From Ardenticatenaceae bacterium (GTDB lineage Bacteria; Chloroflexota; Anaerolineae; Ardenticatenales; Ardenticatenaceae), in the NCBI GenBank assembly GCA_026989095.1, contig JALSKA010000166.1:1-57506 (forward strand): a stretch of DNA of 57,506 nt, written 5' to 3'. A program made the position numbers and the translations under genes. Below, piece by piece: positions 20,842 to 28,202 of the stretch; position 1 is the stretch's first letter, and every line of letters starts with the position of its first letter. The notes beneath the pieces are model-generated. The model was given only the letters and a program-made list of their open reading frames with translations. It was not told where the DNA came from and searched no databases.

Positions 20842-21717
20842 TCACGTGTGGCGTTTGAGCGCCAATCCCACGTTGGCCACATACCGGCGCTCGGGCAACT
20901 CCGCCGGCAGGAGAAGCGGTGATCCCCAGTCGGCTACGGTGTATCCCAGGGCCTCCTGGATCAACCGCCGCAAAAAGGGAAAGGTCCCCAGCGCTCCGGT
21001 GCAGAAGACGGGGGTGGAGGCGTCCACAGGGCGACCGCGTCCGCGGGCATTGTACTCCTGAACGGCCGCTTCCAGAAATTCCGCCAGGCGGACGGCCTTG
21101 TCGCGGGCCGTGGTGAGGAGCGGGGCGTGAAGGGGCTCGCTGAGCACGAGGAGGGGGATGAACTCGTCGGCCACGACGACCGTTGCCAGCGACGGCTCTC
21201 CGTCCACGATGACGCAGTGGGCGTGCCCAACGGCGCGAAGCAGGGCCAGTGGCTTGGGTTCCAGCGCCCGCACGCGCATTCCCGCCTGTTCCAACACGGC
21301 ATAGGTCTGGTCCACCGTGGCCCGTGGCACTCGCAGGAGAATGAGGGTGCGGCGGCCGGCGTGCTCGATCACGTGCCACGCCACCACAGACCCTTCCGCG
21401 GGCCAGAAGCGGGAGGCGATTTCGGTGGCCGCGCGTTCGTCCACGTGTTGGTGAGGGGGCAGGGTGACGAGGCGAACGGATGTCTGGAGGCCCGGCGTGG
21501 CGACGATCACTTGGCGGGAGGGCACGCGGTGGACCTCCCACAGCATCCGCACGGCACGGATGACGGCGTGGGGATCGCGGATCACGTCGCCGTGAAGTGC
21601 GCCGCGGGGCAAGGGGGCTCGCCCCCAAGCGTCCACGCGCTTTCCCCGGACGACGAGGAGGCGGAGTTCGTCAGGTTCCACGCAGAGGGTCACCCGAGGA
21701 CGTTGCCACCACACCAT
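20842..21717 (-). CDS. PilM-like protein
   Basis: The 291-residue soluble protein begins VTLCVEPDELRLLVVRGKRVDAW, the way PilM/actin-fold proteins begin. It continues with a strand-rich middle (HVDERAATEIASRFWP; LEPKPLALLRAV) and ends with LPERRYVANVGLALK, matching the PilM C terminus where the protein re-enters the list of 'average' actin-like folds. Nucleotide-binding glycines are poorly conserved. The start ATG overlaps the stop of the PilO-like gene by one base (TGATG). This is the PilM-then-PilNO relationship in reversed order. A cytoplasmic scaffold for the inner-membrane pilus platform is inferred. Identification is moderate. Confidence 0.55.
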   Translation of the reverse strand: MVWWQRPRVTLCVEPDELRLLVVRGKRVDAWGRAPLPRGALHGDVIRDPHAVIRAVRMLWEVHRVPSRQVIVATPGLQTSVRLVTLPPHQHVDERAATEIASRFWPAEGSVVAWHVIEHAGRRTLILLRVPRATVDQTYAVLEQAGMRVRALEPKPLALLRAVGHAHCVIVDGEPSLATVVVADEFIPLLVLSEPLHAPLLTTARDKAVRLAEFLEAAVQEYNARGRGRPVDASTPVFCTGALGTFPFLRRLIQEALGYTVADWGSPLLLPAELPERRYVANVGLALKRHT

Positions 21718-23753
21718 CAGGGATAGATCTCCAGGATCCAGTTGTTGAGGGTGCCCGTCGTGCCGGCCGGCTTGGTGTCGGTCACCCGCAAGGACCAGGT
21801 GCCCGTCGAGCTCTTGCCCGCAATGCGGTCCAGGTCGCTGCCCTCGACGTTGTACCAGCGGCTGATGCGCGTGGGGCCGTCTTCGTCAACGCGCTCCTCC
21901 TCCTGAAGGGTGATCACGTCCCCGTAGGGCGTCAGGAGCTCGATGCGCAGGTCGAAGGTGTCGTCGTGTTCGATGTAGACGAAGACTTGCACCTCGCGGA
22001 TGGCCACGTCCTCGCTCACGGTGAAGGAGGTGAGGAGGGGGTTGTTGATGTCCTCCGGGATGGGGAGAGGGTCCCCGCTCATCTGGTAGCGGAGCGGCGA
22101 GGGCGTTGGCGTGGGCGTGGGCGTCGGGGTGGGCGTGACCGTCGGCGTGGAGGTGGCCGTGGGCGTGCTCGTCGGGCTGGGCTGGGGGCGCGGCGTGTTG
22201 GTGGGCGTGCTCGTGGGCGCCGGCGTGCCGTACTGGCCGGCGAAGCGGATGAAGTCCACGATGACCACCTGTCGGCCTGTTCCCCCGGGCCGGCAGTCGC
22301 CCAAGTCGGTGAAGACGGTCACAATCTCGGAGAGGTAGGCGCCCGTCTCGCGGTCCACCACGGCCACGTACCACTTGCCCTCCTTGGGATAGGGGGCCAG
22401 CACCACGTCCCAGTACCCGGCCGGCTGGCGCGGGTCGGTGCCGGAGGGGAGGGAGTAGACTTGGTCCGCGGAGGCGCCGTCCCACCAGACGCGCACGGTG
22501 ACGCCGTTGAGGGGCTGGCCCGATTCGGCCTTGATGGTTCCCTTGATCTGGGTGAGCCCGCAGTTGGGCAGGTAGAAGGGCGTGGTGGGGCCGAATTGGT
22601 ACGGGCTCGGCGGACCTGCCGGCGCCGGGGTGTCGGTGGGGCCGGCCGCCCGGGTGGCCGTGGGCGTCACCGACGGCGTGGGCGAGGGACCTGGAGTTCT
22701 GGTGGGGTGGGGTGTCCCTGTGCTCGTGGGCCGAGGTGTGTTGGTGGGCGGCGGCTGTTGGGTTGGCGGGCGGGTAACCGTGGGCGAGGGGCCCTGTGGC
22801 GTGGGCGACGGGGTGGGCGTCGCCGTTGGCCCGACGGCCACGCTGTCGTCGCGCGTGGGCTGTGGCGTGGTCGTGCGGGCCTCGCTGACTTGGAGCAGGC
22901 CGAGCACGGCCTCCTCGCCCTCCGGGCGGATGTTCAACGCCTCACGGAACTGGGCCTCGGCGGCCTCCAGGAACCCTTGGGCCAGCAGGGCGTTGCCGTA
23001 GGCCACGTAGGTGTCGTAGAGGAGGTCGTCCACGCCGGCCGGCTCCAGGAGGGAGAGGCGAATCAACGCGCTGAGGGCCAGCTCGTAGTCGCCCCGGGCC
23101 ATGGCTTCCTCGTAGCGGGCGCGCAGCTCCTCGGCCCGTTGCGCGTCCGTCGGCGTGGGGGAGGCGTCCCCGGCCGCTGCCACCTGTGCCGCGGCGCTCA
23201 GGACCACGAGGGTACCCTCGAGCCTGTAGGTGCCTTCTTCGTCGCGGGCAATGTTCACATCCTGGAACCGGGCGGTGGGCAGGGCATCCTGTTCCACATT
23301 GGTGACGAAGGCCGTGAGCCCGTCGAGGGAGCCGGTCGCCTGAACGGCATAACGCTGCCGCTCGATGCCGTCGCCCACCGCTTGGGCCGACAGGACTTCC
23401 ACCTGTTCCACCGTCACGCCAGACCGGCGCCCCGCTTGGACGAGGGTGTCGAGCACGCTGAGCCCCTCCTCGCCCGGCATCCCGGCTTGGGCCGTGGCCA
23501 GCCGGCCCCGAGCCGCCTCCAACTGGGCCTCCAGCCGGTCGATGTCGGCCACGGTGGGCGCTACAGTGGCCACGAAGGCCTGATAGCGGTAGAGTTCCCC
23601 CTGGAGGAAGCGCTGGGCCTGGCGCTGGCGCCGAAAGTCCAGGGCGAACCAGCCGTACAGGCCCACCAGCACCAGGAAGAGGCCGAGCAGCACGAGGGCG
23701 CGCGCGCGCGGCGAGAGCGACGGTATTGGCGTTGGCCGGACGACGTTGTTCAT
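21717..23753 (-). CDS. PilO-like membrane protein fused to TPR, Cna-B-like and P domains
   Basis: The 678-residue protein has a single transmembrane helix at 18-37 after a short cytoplasmic end. A PilO-like periplasmic coiled coil and ferredoxin-like domain covers about 38-190 (DIDRLEAQLEAARGRLATA; VEQVEVLSAQ). A TPR-like helical segment lies at about 205-290. A Thr/Pro linker at 297-385 leads to a Cna-B or carboxypeptidase-regulatory-like domain at about 398-505 (IKGTIKAESGQPLNGVTV) with cysteines at 398 and 487. A second Thr/Pro linker at 508-553 is followed by a subtilase-type P domain at 555-678 (TSFTVSEDVAIREVQVFVYI; TGTWSLRVTDTKPAG; NNWILEIYP). P domains usually follow proteases; none is here. 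A surface adhesive or tethering role is speculative. Confidence 0.7.
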   Translation of the reverse strand: MNNVVRPTPIPSLSPRARALVLLGLFLVLVGLYGWFALDFRRQRQAQRFLQGELYRYQAFVATVAPTVADIDRLEAQLEAARGRLATAQAGMPGEEGLSVLDTLVQAGRRSGVTVEQVEVLSAQAVGDGIERQRYAVQATGSLDGLTAFVTNVEQDALPTARFQDVNIARDEEGTYRLEGTLVVLSAAAQVAAAGDASPTPTDAQRAEELRARYEEAMARGDYELALSALIRLSLLEPAGVDDLLYDTYVAYGNALLAQGFLEAAEAQFREALNIRPEGEEAVLGLLQVSEARTTTPQPTRDDSVAVGPTATPTPSPTPQGPSPTVTRPPTQQPPPTNTPRPTSTGTPHPTRTPGPSPTPSVTPTATRAAGPTDTPAPAGPPSPYQFGPTTPFYLPNCGLTQIKGTIKAESGQPLNGVTVRVWWDGASADQVYSLPSGTDPRQPAGYWDVVLAPYPKEGKWYVAVVDRETGAYLSEIVTVFTDLGDCRPGGTGRQVVIVDFIRFAGQYGTPAPTSTPTNTPRPQPSPTSTPTATSTPTVTPTPTPTPTPTPSPLRYQMSGDPLPIPEDINNPLLTSFTVSEDVAIREVQVFVYIEHDDTFDLRIELLTPYGDVITLQEEERVDEDGPTRISRWYNVEGSDLDRIAGKSSTGTWSLRVTDTKPAGTTGTLNNWILEIYP

Positions 23754-23845
23754 GTCGTCCCCTGTTCACGTAGTCGGTGAAGAGCCTGCTCGCCCCCTCG
23801 GGGAGCGGGGGTAGCCTGCGAAACCACGGTTCACACGGGCCAGAG

Positions 23846-25246
23846 TCAATACAGCTTGCGCTTGGGCGCCATGAAGATCTCGGGCGGCAGCTTGAACCCG
23901 GCCTGTTCGAGGCGTGGGGTGAAGCGCGGGCGCACGCCGGTGGGCATGAACTCGCCCACGACCTTGCCGGTGTCGGGGTCCAAGCCGTGCTCGCGGAAGA
24001 TGAAGATGTCCTGCATGACGATGGTGTCGCCCTCCATGCCCTGGATCTCGCTGATCTGCACCACCTTGCGGGAGCCGTCGCGCAGGCGTGATGTCTGGAC
24101 GATGAGGTCCACGGCGCTGGCGATCTGCTCGCGGATGACCTTCAGGGGGAGCTCCATGCCGGCCATCAGCGCCATGGTTTCCAAACGGGCCAGACAGTCG
24201 CGCGGGCTGTTGGCGTGGGCGGTGGTCAACGAGCCGTCGTGGCCGGTGTTCATGGCCTGGAGCATGTCGAGCGCTTCGCCGCCGCGCACCTCGCCCACCA
24301 CGATGCGGTCGGGGCGCATCCGCAGGGCGTTGATGACCAGGTCGCGGATGCTGACGCGGCCCGTGCCGTCCACCTCGGCCGGCTTGGCCTCCAGGCGCAC
24401 CACGTGGCGCTGTTGGAGCTGGAGCTCGGCGGCGTCCTCGATGGTGACAATGCGCTCGCCGTCCGGGATGAAGCGGCTCAGAATGTTGAGCAGCGTGGTC
24501 TTGCCGGAGCCTGTGCCGCCGCTCACCACGATGTTGAGGCGCGAGACCACGCAGGCCCGCAGGAACTCGGCCATTTGGGGGGTCATGGAGCCAAAGCGGA
24601 TCAGGTCGTCCACGCCCAGTTTCTCCTTGCTGAACCGGCGGATGGTCAGCGTGGGGCCGTCGATGGCGCACGGCGGGATGATGGCGTTCACGCGGCTCCC
24701 GTCGGGCAGGCGGGCGTCCACCATGGGCCACTTGCGGTCGATGTGGCGCCCCAAGGGGCGGATGATGCGCTCGATGATGCGCATCACGTGGGCGTCGTCC
24801 CGGAACTTCACGTCCGTCTCGATGAGGCGGCCGGCCTTTTCCACGAAGACCAAGTGGGGCCCGTTGACCATGATCTCGGTCACCTCGGGGTCCCGGAGCA
24901 GGGGCTCCAAGGGGCCGAATCCCAGCAGCTCGTCCTCGATCTCCTGGAAGAGAGCCCGCTGTTCGGACGGCGTCAGGGCCACGCCGCTTTCACGGTAGAG
25001 CTCCTGGAAGCGCTGTGCCAGCAGCCGGCGTGTCTCCGGGGAGCGGTCCAGCTTGAGCCCTTCCAGGTGCTCGAAGAGACGGTCCACCATCCAGTCGCGC
25101 AGCTCGGCGCGGCGCTGCCTGGCGATGTCCTCCAGCCCGGCCGTCTGGCGGCGTGCGGGCCGGGGTGCGGCCGGCTGATCGCCTTGGGGAGGCTTGGGCG
25201 AACGCTCGGGCTCCGGGTTTTGCAGACGTTGTAAGAGCGACGACAT
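23846..25246 (-). CDS. cpaF: CpaF/TadA-family pilus or secretion ATPase
   Basis: The 466-residue traffic ATPase has an N-terminal helical region (40-120), an N2 domain (EVTEIMVNGP; RIIRPLGRHIDRKWPMVDARL) and a RecA-like core. Walker A is GGTGSGKT at 243-250 and the Walker B region is RIVVGEVRG at 314-322. An Asp/His box lies at NTGHDGSLTTAHANS (333-347). This is the CpaF/TadA subfamily that powers Tad pili and related systems. The start is ATG 25246, with GGGGTGA upstream; a GTG at 25255 is the alternative. No TadB/TadC platform, pilin or prepilin peptidase is present in the window, so the rest of the machine must lie elsewhere. Confidence 0.92.
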   Translation of the reverse strand: MSSLLQRLQNPEPERSPKPPQGDQPAAPRPARRQTAGLEDIARQRRAELRDWMVDRLFEHLEGLKLDRSPETRRLLAQRFQELYRESGVALTPSEQRALFQEIEDELLGFGPLEPLLRDPEVTEIMVNGPHLVFVEKAGRLIETDVKFRDDAHVMRIIERIIRPLGRHIDRKWPMVDARLPDGSRVNAIIPPCAIDGPTLTIRRFSKEKLGVDDLIRFGSMTPQMAEFLRACVVSRLNIVVSGGTGSGKTTLLNILSRFIPDGERIVTIEDAAELQLQQRHVVRLEAKPAEVDGTGRVSIRDLVINALRMRPDRIVVGEVRGGEALDMLQAMNTGHDGSLTTAHANSPRDCLARLETMALMAGMELPLKVIREQIASAVDLIVQTSRLRDGSRKVVQISEIQGMEGDTIVMQDIFIFREHGLDPDTGKVVGEFMPTGVRPRFTPRLEQAGFKLPPEIFMAPKRKLY

Positions 25247-25282
25247 GGCTTTCACCCCAATCTCTGGTTTTGCGGTGTTGAC

Positions 25283-26596
25283 TCAGAACTCCACGAAGTA
25301 GGCCGAACAGGCTTGGTCGATGAGCTCTTTGGTGAGCGCCGGCTTGATCCCCCGGTAGGTGGCGATGTCGATAATTTGGTCCACGATGTCGCGGGGGTGA
25401 ACGGAGCGCAGCTCCCGCTTTTGTTTTACATAATACTCGCGCAGCAGGTAGACCACGGCTTGGGGGGCAAACTCGACGCCCCGGGCCTTGCACACGCGGC
25501 GGAAGATCTCGTAATATTGGCGCTCCGTGGGGTTGCCGATCTCGATTTTGTGGCGAATGCGGCGCAGGAACGCCTCGTCCACCAGGTCCTTGGGGTCCAA
25601 GTTGGTGCTGAAGACGATCAGCACCTGGAAGGGAATCTCAATCTTCATGCCCGTCTGGAGGGTGAGGAAGTCCACGCGCGATTCGAGGGGCACGATCCAG
25701 CGGTTCAGGAGGTCTTGGGGACGCACTTGTTGCCGGCCGAAGTCGTCGATCATGAAGACGCCGCCGTTGGCCTTCATCTGAAAGGGGGCCTCGTAGGTCT
25801 TGGAGACCGGGTCGTAGATGAGGTCCAAGGTTTCCAGGGTGAGCTCACCGCCCACGACGATGCACGGCCGCTGGATCTTCACCCAGCGCTGGTCGGGCCG
25901 GCGGGCGCGCAGGCTGCTGGTGGTCTCGCGTCGGGCCGGCTCCTCGACGGGCTTGTGGTTGACTTGGTCGAAGACTTTGATGACGCTGCCGCCGACTTCA
26001 ACGGCGTAGGGCACGTAGACATCGCCCTTCATCATGCGCGATATGGCCGAGGCAATGGTGGACTTGCCGTTGCCGGGCGGGCCGTAGAGGAAGAGGGAGC
26101 GCCCGGAGTTGACGGCCGGCCCCAGCCGGTCGATGAGTGTGGGGGGAATGACCAGGTGGGAGAGGGCCCGCTTCACGTCCTCGGGGCCCACGCGGTGTTG
26201 GTTGGGCGATTGGCGCAGGACCACTTTCCGGTAGGCGTCTAGGGTGACGGGGGCCGGTCCTATGTACTGGTTGCGCTCGAGCGCCTCGCGGGCCCGCTGG
26301 ATGCCCTTTTGGGAGATGGCGTATCGGAAGCCCCGCTCGCCGAGCCCGGAGCTTCCCGTGATGCTGACCAGCTCCTCGCGCTTGAGGTACTCGAGCACGG
26401 TGTCCACCACCCCCACGAAGGGCAGGCAGACGGTCTCGGCGATGTCCCGGGCAATGATCTCGCCGGCGAAGTAGATGACTTTCAGGATCAGGTCGGTGAG
26501 GAACCCCATGCTGAGGCCCGTCTCCTCGATGGAGCGGGGTTCCAGAAGTTCCTCGGGCAGCGCGGACGCGGTCGTTGTTGGGCTGCGGACGCTCAT
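25283..26596 (-). CDS. AAA+ ATPase with N-terminal winged helix, pilus-cluster associated
   Basis: The 437-residue protein has a winged-helix-like N-terminal region (about 30-110: LEYLKREELVSITG; GFRYAISQKG) and a AAA+ core. Walker A is GPPGNGKST at 172-180, Walker B is GGVFMIDDFGR at 278-288, a sensor-like motif is VFSTNLDP at 328-335, and an arginine-finger candidate is FLRRIRHKIEI. A cysteine/His-poor C-terminal helical lid ends the protein. The start is ATG 26596, overlapping the upstream stop as ATGA. It lies 36 bases before cpaF. The family looks like a helicase-loader/RavA-style AAA+ rather than a secretion ATPase. Regulation or assembly of the pilus is inferred from context only. Confidence 0.75.
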   Translation of the reverse strand: MSVRSPTTTASALPEELLEPRSIEETGLSMGFLTDLILKVIYFAGEIIARDIAETVCLPFVGVVDTVLEYLKREELVSITGSSGLGERGFRYAISQKGIQRAREALERNQYIGPAPVTLDAYRKVVLRQSPNQHRVGPEDVKRALSHLVIPPTLIDRLGPAVNSGRSLFLYGPPGNGKSTIASAISRMMKGDVYVPYAVEVGGSVIKVFDQVNHKPVEEPARRETTSSLRARRPDQRWVKIQRPCIVVGGELTLETLDLIYDPVSKTYEAPFQMKANGGVFMIDDFGRQQVRPQDLLNRWIVPLESRVDFLTLQTGMKIEIPFQVLIVFSTNLDPKDLVDEAFLRRIRHKIEIGNPTERQYYEIFRRVCKARGVEFAPQAVVYLLREYYVKQKRELRSVHPRDIVDQIIDIATYRGIKPALTKELIDQACSAYFVEF

Positions 26597-26898
26597 GGCG
26601 CTTCTTCCTCGCCTTGTCGGACCGCTTCCACGGGAATGACCCACACGAGCTGGCTCTTGTTCACGGCCACGAAGCCCACGTGGAGTTCGTTTCCGTCCGG
26701 GCCGGGCACGGTGGCGTCGGTGAGGGCGATGAAGAGCCGCTCGCTGTTGAGCTCGTCGCTGAGCCGGTGGCCGGGGTGGATGTGCATCATGCCCCGGATG
26801 GTGCCCGTGCGCGTGATGGCGAAGACTTCCAGGGTCTGAGTTGTCACCCGGTCGGTGTAGTATTTGCCCTTTGCGTCGATCCTTACTTCCGCGTTCAT
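26593..26898 (-). CDS. Small conserved beta-rich protein, possibly DUF6812-like
   Basis: The 101-residue protein starts at ATG 26898 (MNAEVRIDAKG), with AGGAG upstream. Alternating hydrophobic and polar stretches (ITRTGTIRGMMHIHPGHRLSDELN; FIALTDATVPG; ELHVGFVAVNKSQLVWVIP) predict a small beta-barrel or sheet. I recall similar short proteins accompanying pilus and motility genes, but I cannot name the family with certainty. No signal peptide, membrane segment or catalytic motif is visible. It ends inside the AAA+ start codon (ATGA), so the two are probably translated in a fixed ratio and may interact. Confidence 0.65.
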   Translation of the reverse strand: MNAEVRIDAKGKYYTDRVTTQTLEVFAITRTGTIRGMMHIHPGHRLSDELNSERLFIALTDATVPGPDGNELHVGFVAVNKSQLVWVIPVEAVRQGEEEAP

Positions 26899-26972
26899 CT
26901 CCGTTCTCCTGTGACGTGTTGCCCGGTGCGCGGCGGCGGGGGATACGGCTGGCCGCGTCCCCCGCCTTGTTC

Positions 26973-28202
26973 TCACTTGCGCACGCTGCCCACGGCCCAG
27001 AGGAACCCGGCCACCATCATGGCGGCCGTGGCCGCCAGGCCCACGAAGGGGAGCTTGGAGTCGTAACCGGGATTGATGGGCTCGCCGGCGGCGTATTGCT
27101 TGAACAGGGCGCCCCAGCCGGTGTGTTCCAAGATGTATTGGGCCCGTTGGTGGCCGACGAAGGGATACCAGAAGACGTTGTGGTAGAGGTTGGAGGCGAG
27201 GTAGCTCCAGGGAACCAACCGCGAGCGCAGCAGCACGCCCTCCAGGGGCTTGAGGGGGCCGTGGTAGATGAGTTTCTGCCCCCGGCTGGCGAAGGTGTTC
27301 TCCTGGCCGGAGAAATGCCAGTTCTCCTCGGCCGCGTCCACGTCGCCCACGATTTCGATTTCTCTCGGGTCTCCCACGCCTAAGCCGCGCTCGTGGGCGA
27401 GGCGGATGAACTTGATCTTCAAGGGGTCGAAGCCCATCATCTTGGCCGCAATGGCATCAATGGCCACTTGGTCGGCCGAGGCCAAGATGACATTCTTCAC
27501 GTGGGGGCGCATGGCCCGTGGGCCGGGGCCGTCGCCGGCCAAAGTGCCGTCCATGACGGCGAAGAGGCCACTGTGGATGTCCTGCTGGATCTGGAGCAAG
27601 TCCACCAGCGTCTCGTGGATGACGGCGTGGGTCCAGTGGCGCCGCTCGTTCAGGAGCCCGCCAAAGGCGTTCTTCATGGCCCCGGTCATGGTAGTGAAGA
27701 CGTGAGTTTTGGTCTGGGGCAGGTGGATGATGTTGCGGTCGTAGAAGAACTCGGGGATGTAGACCCCTTCGGGGTAGATCTGGTCGAGCACGAGGAAGGG
27801 CTGCTTGGGCTCATAGCGAACCCACTTCACGTGGGGTTCGTAGATGTGAACGTTGCGCAGGCCGTATTTCTCGATGACGTGCTTGTGGCGGTTGTTCACC
27901 TCCCCCTCCTTGGCGCTGACCACCACCGTGCGGTTGTGGGCGGCGATGAGCGACTCGCGGGGGTAGCCGTCGTCCAGGAGTGTACGGATCACGCCCTCGA
28001 GTTGCCAGGGAGGAGTGGAGCAGCCGGGGTACCAGATTTGCCACGAGATGTTGATCTTCAGGATGGTCTCGTGATCCTTGGGCAGGTTCTCCTGGTATCC
28101 TGCCAGGCGCATCAGGCGGGCATAGTCTTCGAGGACTGTCTGAGGGCTGGTGCGCAGGATGGCCACACGCCCTCGCCCGGGGAAATTGGCCGGATCGATC
28201 AT
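26973..28202 (-). CDS. DUF362-domain protein with C-terminal membrane anchor
   Basis: The 409-residue protein carries DUF362 features: VAILRTSPQTVLEDYARLM near the start, ETILKINISW, LPQTKTHVFTTMTGAMKNAFGG and NVILASADQVAIDAIAAKMMG. The C terminus ends in one hydrophobic segment (FVGLAATAAMMVAGFLWAVG) and a basic tail, so it is probably tail-anchored to the inner membrane. Many DUF362 proteins carry a 2x[4Fe-4S] ferredoxin domain; none is present here. The biochemical role of the family is unknown to me. A perfect AAGGAGG precedes the ATG. It is monocistronic, or precedes the pilus run by a 74-base gap. Confidence 0.8.
   Translation of the reverse strand: MIDPANFPGRGRVAILRTSPQTVLEDYARLMRLAGYQENLPKDHETILKINISWQIWYPGCSTPPWQLEGVIRTLLDDGYPRESLIAAHNRTVVVSAKEGEVNNRHKHVIEKYGLRNVHIYEPHVKWVRYEPKQPFLVLDQIYPEGVYIPEFFYDRNIIHLPQTKTHVFTTMTGAMKNAFGGLLNERRHWTHAVIHETLVDLLQIQQDIHSGLFAVMDGTLAGDGPGPRAMRPHVKNVILASADQVAIDAIAAKMMGFDPLKIKFIRLAHERGLGVGDPREIEIVGDVDAAEENWHFSGQENTFASRGQKLIYHGPLKPLEGVLLRSRLVPWSYLASNLYHNVFWYPFVGHQRAQYILEHTGWGALFKQYAAGEPINPGYDSKLPFVGLAATAAMMVAGFLWAVGSVRK

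Follow-up and report, generated by a model that had tools for sequence, protein, structure and literature searches.

How a pilus passes through the cell wall of a bacterium that has no secretin is an open question, for which an enlarged PilO is so far only a proposed answer (PMC6916266, PMC13319060). The question is raised here by a 57,506-nucleotide stretch of DNA from an Ardenticatenaceae bacterium of the phylum Chloroflexota (assembly GCA_026989095.1, contig JALSKA010000166.1, positions 1 to 57,506), referred to in its whole length as the window. On its reverse strand, at 21717..23753, a gene encodes a 678-amino-acid fusion in which a membrane helix with coiled coil, a PilO-type domain, a TPR segment, a Cna-B domain and a P domain follow one another, the last two each preceded by a linker. 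We favour, with some confidence, the reading that this protein is the inner-membrane PilO scaffold of a PilM-PilN-PilO complex, with a tail that crosses or grips the wall, and that in its host, where no secretin is detected, it most likely serves a Tad pilus. A preliminary description, made from the letters of the sequence, had already read one gene with PilO-type, TPR, Cna-B-like and P segments on Thr/Pro linkers, and all four of the segments that it named were right.

The PilO part and its partners

Full-length orthologues are present in five related genomes (G001, G002, G004, G005 and G006), so that the search for the same architecture in other Chloroflexota, which the preliminary description had recommended, was successful, and an assembly chimera is rejected on the same ground. 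The P domain is kept in all six orthologues and the substitutions among them fall mostly at third codon positions; for these reasons we take the reading frame to be a single genuine gene under selection. An antisense open reading frame on the forward strand (21597-23780) was ruled out as the true gene by homology and by the same third-position pattern.

The N-terminal part of the fusion (all of its features lie on the reverse strand) begins with a predicted transmembrane helix at residues ~15-44 (23622..23711), visible as a hydrophobic stretch in the sequence and within an AlphaFold2 helix at 15-64, and continues as a coiled coil to residue ~93. The PilO-type ferredoxin-like domain occupies residues 94-187 (23193..23474) and the TPR segment residues 203-295 (22869..23147). 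The preliminary description had placed PilO at residues 15-190 and named a profile match as the check. This held in part: the window protein searched as a single sequence matches neither Pfam PilO nor any PilO in the PDB, but support comes from the family and from the fold. A family profile was made from an alignment of 13 N-terminal parts, including those of relatives, and 11 of these 13 reach E ≤ 1 against Pfam PilO, with E 5.4e-6 as the best value. Searched against the PDB, the profile finds PilO of M. xanthus at E 0.0017 and of P. aeruginosa at E 0.014, both ranking below many TPR proteins.

In the AlphaFold2 model a long N-terminal helix is followed by an alpha-beta-beta-alpha-beta-beta domain at 94-187 and then by five TPR helices at 203-295. 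The three best Foldseek matches in the PDB are all PilO (two chains of 2rjz, then 3jc8; E 2.8e-5 to 3.9e-4), and a further PilO structure, 5uvr, also ranks high; model and matches together reproduce the PilO-type layout of N-terminal transmembrane helix, coiled coil and ferredoxin-like domain. The predicted template modelling score (pTM) of the whole model is low, 0.36, as expected for domains that are loosely linked. The PilO fold, the TPR helices and the Cna-B sandwich, for which structure prediction had been suggested as a check, are each seen in the models.

The gene directly downstream (20842..21717, reverse strand) encodes a PilM-like protein of 291 amino acids and overlaps the stop codon of the fusion by one base, at the junction TGATG. 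It matches TIGR01175 at E 9.6e-6, under the curated cut-off, and some homologous proteins from elsewhere in the Chloroflexota exceed the Pfam PilM_2 cut-off. In three sister genomes (G004, G005 and G006) pilN comes next after the PilM-like gene and a histidine kinase gene follows, so that pilO, pilM, pilN and the kinase form one run; the PilN proteins of G005 and G006 exceed the Pfam PilN cut-off. Here, pilN and a kinase gene of the same type, for a receiver-type histidine kinase, lie together on another contig, C177 (L063:1152-3290), apart from pilO and pilM. This PilN starts MHVPDVNLMP, which we take to resemble the motif by which other PilN proteins bind PilM.

The N-terminal part might instead belong to an unrelated coiled-coil membrane protein, as the missing Pfam PilO match of the window sequence and the low whole-model pTM would allow. 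Fold, profile and gene order concur on PilO, however, and we regard this alternative as highly improbable. Because these three agree, there is good support for identifying the fusion as the PilO subunit in a complex of PilM, PilN and PilO.

The Cna-B and P domain tail

The TPR segment gives weak Pfam matches in the single sequence (at ~247-288) and is clear in the family profile and in the AlphaFold2 model. It is followed by a first Thr/Pro-rich linker (residues 296-383, 22605..22868; 65% Thr, Pro or Ser), the Cna-B domain (residues 384-509, 22227..22604), a second linker (residues 510-553, 22095..22226; 84% Thr, Pro or Ser over residues 509-553) and the P domain region (residues 554-678, 21720..22094). 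The linkers are thus ~88 and ~45 residues long. If extended, they could reach, by a rough estimate, tens of nanometres, a distance in keeping with an envelope of several layers such as Litorilinea has.

The Cna-B-like region is modelled with a predicted local distance difference test score of 92 and a pTM of 0.84. Its best structural match in the PDB is a domain of FbaB from S. pyogenes (2x5p, E 5.8e-5), and pilus adhesins and pilins also rank high. The isopeptide triad of Cna-B (Lys, Glu and Asp/Asn) was not recovered, no Lys, Glu or Asp being invariant in the Cna-B alignment. All ten copies of the module share two invariant cysteines, which suggests an extracytoplasmic disulphide. The same two-cysteine module is present in other envelope proteins (L046:8286-9740, L048:8609-9985, L009:1495-2433 and L017:1249-2031). 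Elsewhere in this genome it precedes a domain that reads, by eye, as a polysaccharide deacetylase, and in another genome it stands, again by eye, beside LysM. Because it is found in this company also, the Cna-B unit is, on sequence grounds, a mobile envelope module, and the same neighbours support a link to the wall.

The P domain is matched by PF01483 at residues 586-675 (21729-21998) with 53 bits against a Pfam cut-off of 21 (E 3.9e-14), as the preliminary description had foreseen, and it is the sole P domain found in the genome. No protease family is among the Pfam matches of the fusion, which has no subtilisin catalytic domain. The preliminary description had also stated that subtilisin proteases are what P domains are normally found after; this has to be qualified, since a surface protein of 792 amino acids from the same bacterial family (genome G003, L047:3114-5489) has a C-terminal P domain with no obvious protease or PilO part, as judged by eye. 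This G003 protein was considered as an orthologue and rejected, as it is a different surface protein without the PilO part.

Identity to the window over the five orthologues ranges from 93 to 56% in Cna-B, from 90 to 56% in the TPR segment, from 91 to 36% in the P domain and from 61 to 32% in the PilO domain. Cna-B is therefore the most conserved segment, the TPR segment is also strongly conserved, and among the folded parts of the tail it is the P domain that changes fastest. The PilO-TPR core recurs in other families of the class, there with an end that reads as the peptidoglycan-binding domain LysM.

These comparisons bear on what the tail does. The preliminary description had proposed that the fusion could take the assembly platform across the wall and present an adhesive or sensing module outside, or couple pilus function to an extracellular ligand. 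If the tail were an adhesin or a sensor rather than an anchor, an outside ligand would be bound by Cna-B or the P domain, and a signal would travel from PilO by way of PilN and PilM to the histidine kinase whose gene adjoins pilN. The likeness of the Cna-B fold to pilus adhesins is consistent with this, as are the kinase gene that follows pilN here and in the sisters and the rapid change of the P domain. Yet the slow change of Cna-B is more what one would expect of a structural anchor than of a variable adhesin, LysM takes the same place in relatives, and kinase and PilN are connected by gene order alone. Direct support for an adhesive or sensing module was not obtained and we consider it unlikely, with sensing through the kinase beside pilN as the main rival to the wall-crossing scaffold. 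Of the earlier proposal, the half with the better support is passage of the platform across the wall; the LysM of relatives speaks for it, and the same role has been proposed in print for PilO-LysM of Chloroflexota (PMC13319060) and for large PilO proteins of monoderms (PMC6916266). The tail would thus probably fasten the pilus machine in the cell wall or lead it through.

The pilus that is probably served

Upstream of the fusion, all on the reverse strand, are genes for a second CpaF/TadA-type ATPase (23846..25255), an AAA+ ATPase (25283..26644) and a DUF6812 protein (26593..26976). The AAA+ gene adjoins the fusion locus in all six genomes, and the DUF6812 neighbour recurs in G002 and G005. 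The second CpaF shares 58% identity with the CpaF encoded in the Tad cluster of this genome; it groups with the Tad ATPases, away from PilB and PilT, on its own branch beside the Tad CpaF. In G002 the frame of this gene is split by a frameshift (L034:9596-11298), either a sequencing or assembly error or gene decay.

Only two T2SSE ATPases were found in this genome, both of the TadA type, and the T2SSF platform matches are TadB and TadC only. No match to a secretin, to PilB or PilT, or to an archaellin was found in the genome; a type IVa pilus with its secretin was accordingly not recognised, and an archaellum as partner, as in Litorilinea, was rejected on the lack of an archaellin match. Since Tad-type motors and platform proteins alone were found, the pilus served would most likely be, by exclusion, Tad. 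A link to Tad is supported by G001 and G006, which keep the fusion with the Tad ATPase as the sole T2SSE ATPase found; the second CpaF is absent from their locus.

Alternatively, PilMNO, the second CpaF, the AAA+ ATPase and the DUF6812 protein could form a separate envelope machine that is no scaffold for Tad and perhaps makes no filament. The branch of its own that the second CpaF forms, the constant presence of the AAA+ gene and the distance of the locus from the Tad cluster are in accord with this, but G001 and G006 retain the fusion without a second CpaF at the locus, and no platform protein besides TadB and TadC was found. We judge this slightly less probable again than an adhesin or sensor.

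Several observations weigh against the Tad-serving scaffold that we prefer. The fusion lies outside the Tad cluster, and the sister Tad clusters, which hold TadE/G-like genes, CpaB/RcpC, CpaE, CpaF, TadB and TadC, already have a conduit in CpaB/RcpC. Tad pili have been described as being without PilMNOP, or as having them very rarely (PMC10191384, PMC6668835). The genome is a draft, so that PilB, PilT or a secretin could have escaped the assembly, and the faster divergence of the P domain relative to Cna-B leaves room for other roles.

If the fusion is such a scaffold, one helix would cross the membrane with the N-terminus in the cytoplasm, and the TPR, Cna-B and P domains would lie outside on their Thr/Pro linkers, a topology suggested by the single N-terminal helix together with modules of extracellular type. 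By analogy with known PilMNO biology, the coiled coil and ferredoxin-like domain would pair with PilN, which would hold PilM in the cytoplasm. The tail would then fix the scaffold in, or thread it through, the wall and surface layers, an anchoring that we infer because LysM is found at the same place in relatives. It may in this way keep the pilus exit aligned, a role played in diderms by PilP, PilQ and TsaP. More tentatively, and with less confidence than for the scaffold itself, we suggest that the PilM-PilN-PilO of type IVa pili was taken over by a Tad pilus in a secretin-less order of Chloroflexota, where PilO was rebuilt as a wall-crossing Cna-B/P guide that replaces the secretin route.

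Enlarged PilO proteins in Chloroflexota and beyond

Canonical PilO of P. aeruginosa and M. xanthus (2rjz, 5uvr, 3jc8), which provides the best fold matches, shares the transmembrane helix, coiled coil and ferredoxin-like domain of the fusion; in contrast, it has no TPR, Cna-B or P domain and operates with PilP and the secretin PilQ. A close published likeness is the PilO-LysM encoded near the archaellum of Litorilinea aerophila, for which a peptidoglycan-bridging role has been proposed (PMC12488501) and which was found in the archaellum neighbourhood in only 3 Chloroflexota among 244 archaellated genomes screened (PMC13319060). Both proteins have a PilO-type N-terminus and a C-terminal extracytoplasmic module, with a PilN gene nearby and no PilQ or PilP (PMC12488501, PMC13319060). 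By their descriptions they differ in that the Litorilinea protein ends in LysM and the fusion in Cna-B and a P domain; moreover, the Litorilinea gene is near an archaellum and reported without PilM, whereas here a PilM-like gene overlaps, no archaellin is matched and a Tad-type ATPase gene lies upstream. For the large PilO (PilH) of Streptococcus sanguinis, wall crossing or anchoring has been put forward as speculation (PMC6916266). It is likened to the fusion by description, and belongs to a type IVa machine with PilB/PilT-type motors, unlike the protein here.

RcpC is the Tad conduit known so far (PMC12307814). As part of the Tad alignment complex, RcpC/CpaB resembles the fusion in being an inner-membrane protein and a proposed conduit for the Tad pilus (PMC12307814), but it has the SAF/RcpC fold rather than that of PilO and is encoded by separate genes in the sister Tad clusters. 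Bacterial subtilisin-type proteases (3hjr, 3wqb) also carry a C-terminal P domain, with a weak sequence match; in the fusion there is no protease domain and the P domain ends a membrane scaffold. A literature search for a P domain on PilO returned nothing relevant, and no published description was found of a Cna-B/P tail on PilO or of PilMNO paired with Tad. The fusion extends the known theme of the enlarged PilO, and its Cna-B/P tail appears to be new.

A variety of related arrangements is observed in the phylum. Several of the PilO-TPR-LysM genes are preceded by one for a PilN with long Thr/Pro-linked extensions; such PilN-type proteins, extended at the C-terminus, are ~525 to 1069 amino acids in all (L039:226-1806, L041:14103-15677, L042:1363-3111, L094:4078-6018 and L095:5731-8937). 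Two of them are confirmed by Pfam PilN, and extension in this phylum is thus not confined to PilO but has also affected PilN. Elsewhere, a plain PilO of 183-191 amino acids has PilM encoded next after it, within clusters that also hold PilB-, PilC-, PilD- and PilT-like genes; two of these plain PilO proteins barely attain the Pfam PilO cut-off. The PilO profile is matched in 26 of 251 genomes of the phylum; a large share of the open frames that match it are short, and several of the weak matches look like chance. Since so many are short, long PilO tails look uncommon outside the class, as far as the long matches there were resolved.

Two clusters are of separate note. That of G028 (L040:2203-9025) encodes PilT, an archaellin-type pilin (Pfam Arch_flagellin, E 1.6e-24), a bacterial prepilin peptidase, PilM, a TPR-LysM protein and a PilO-TPR protein, the last two being separate neighbouring proteins. 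That of G035 (L042:281-8389) encodes a response regulator-KaiC fusion, a distant T2SSE ATPase, a T2SSF platform protein, an extended PilN and a PilO-TPR-LysM protein.

The Chloroflexota hold a natural series on one core, from plain PilO through PilO-TPR-LysM to PilO-TPR-CnaB-P, which makes the idea of a wall anchor testable. If its partner is indeed Tad, the fusion would break the current rule that Tad machines are without PilMNOP (PMC10191384), and the Tad connection is the part most worth testing.
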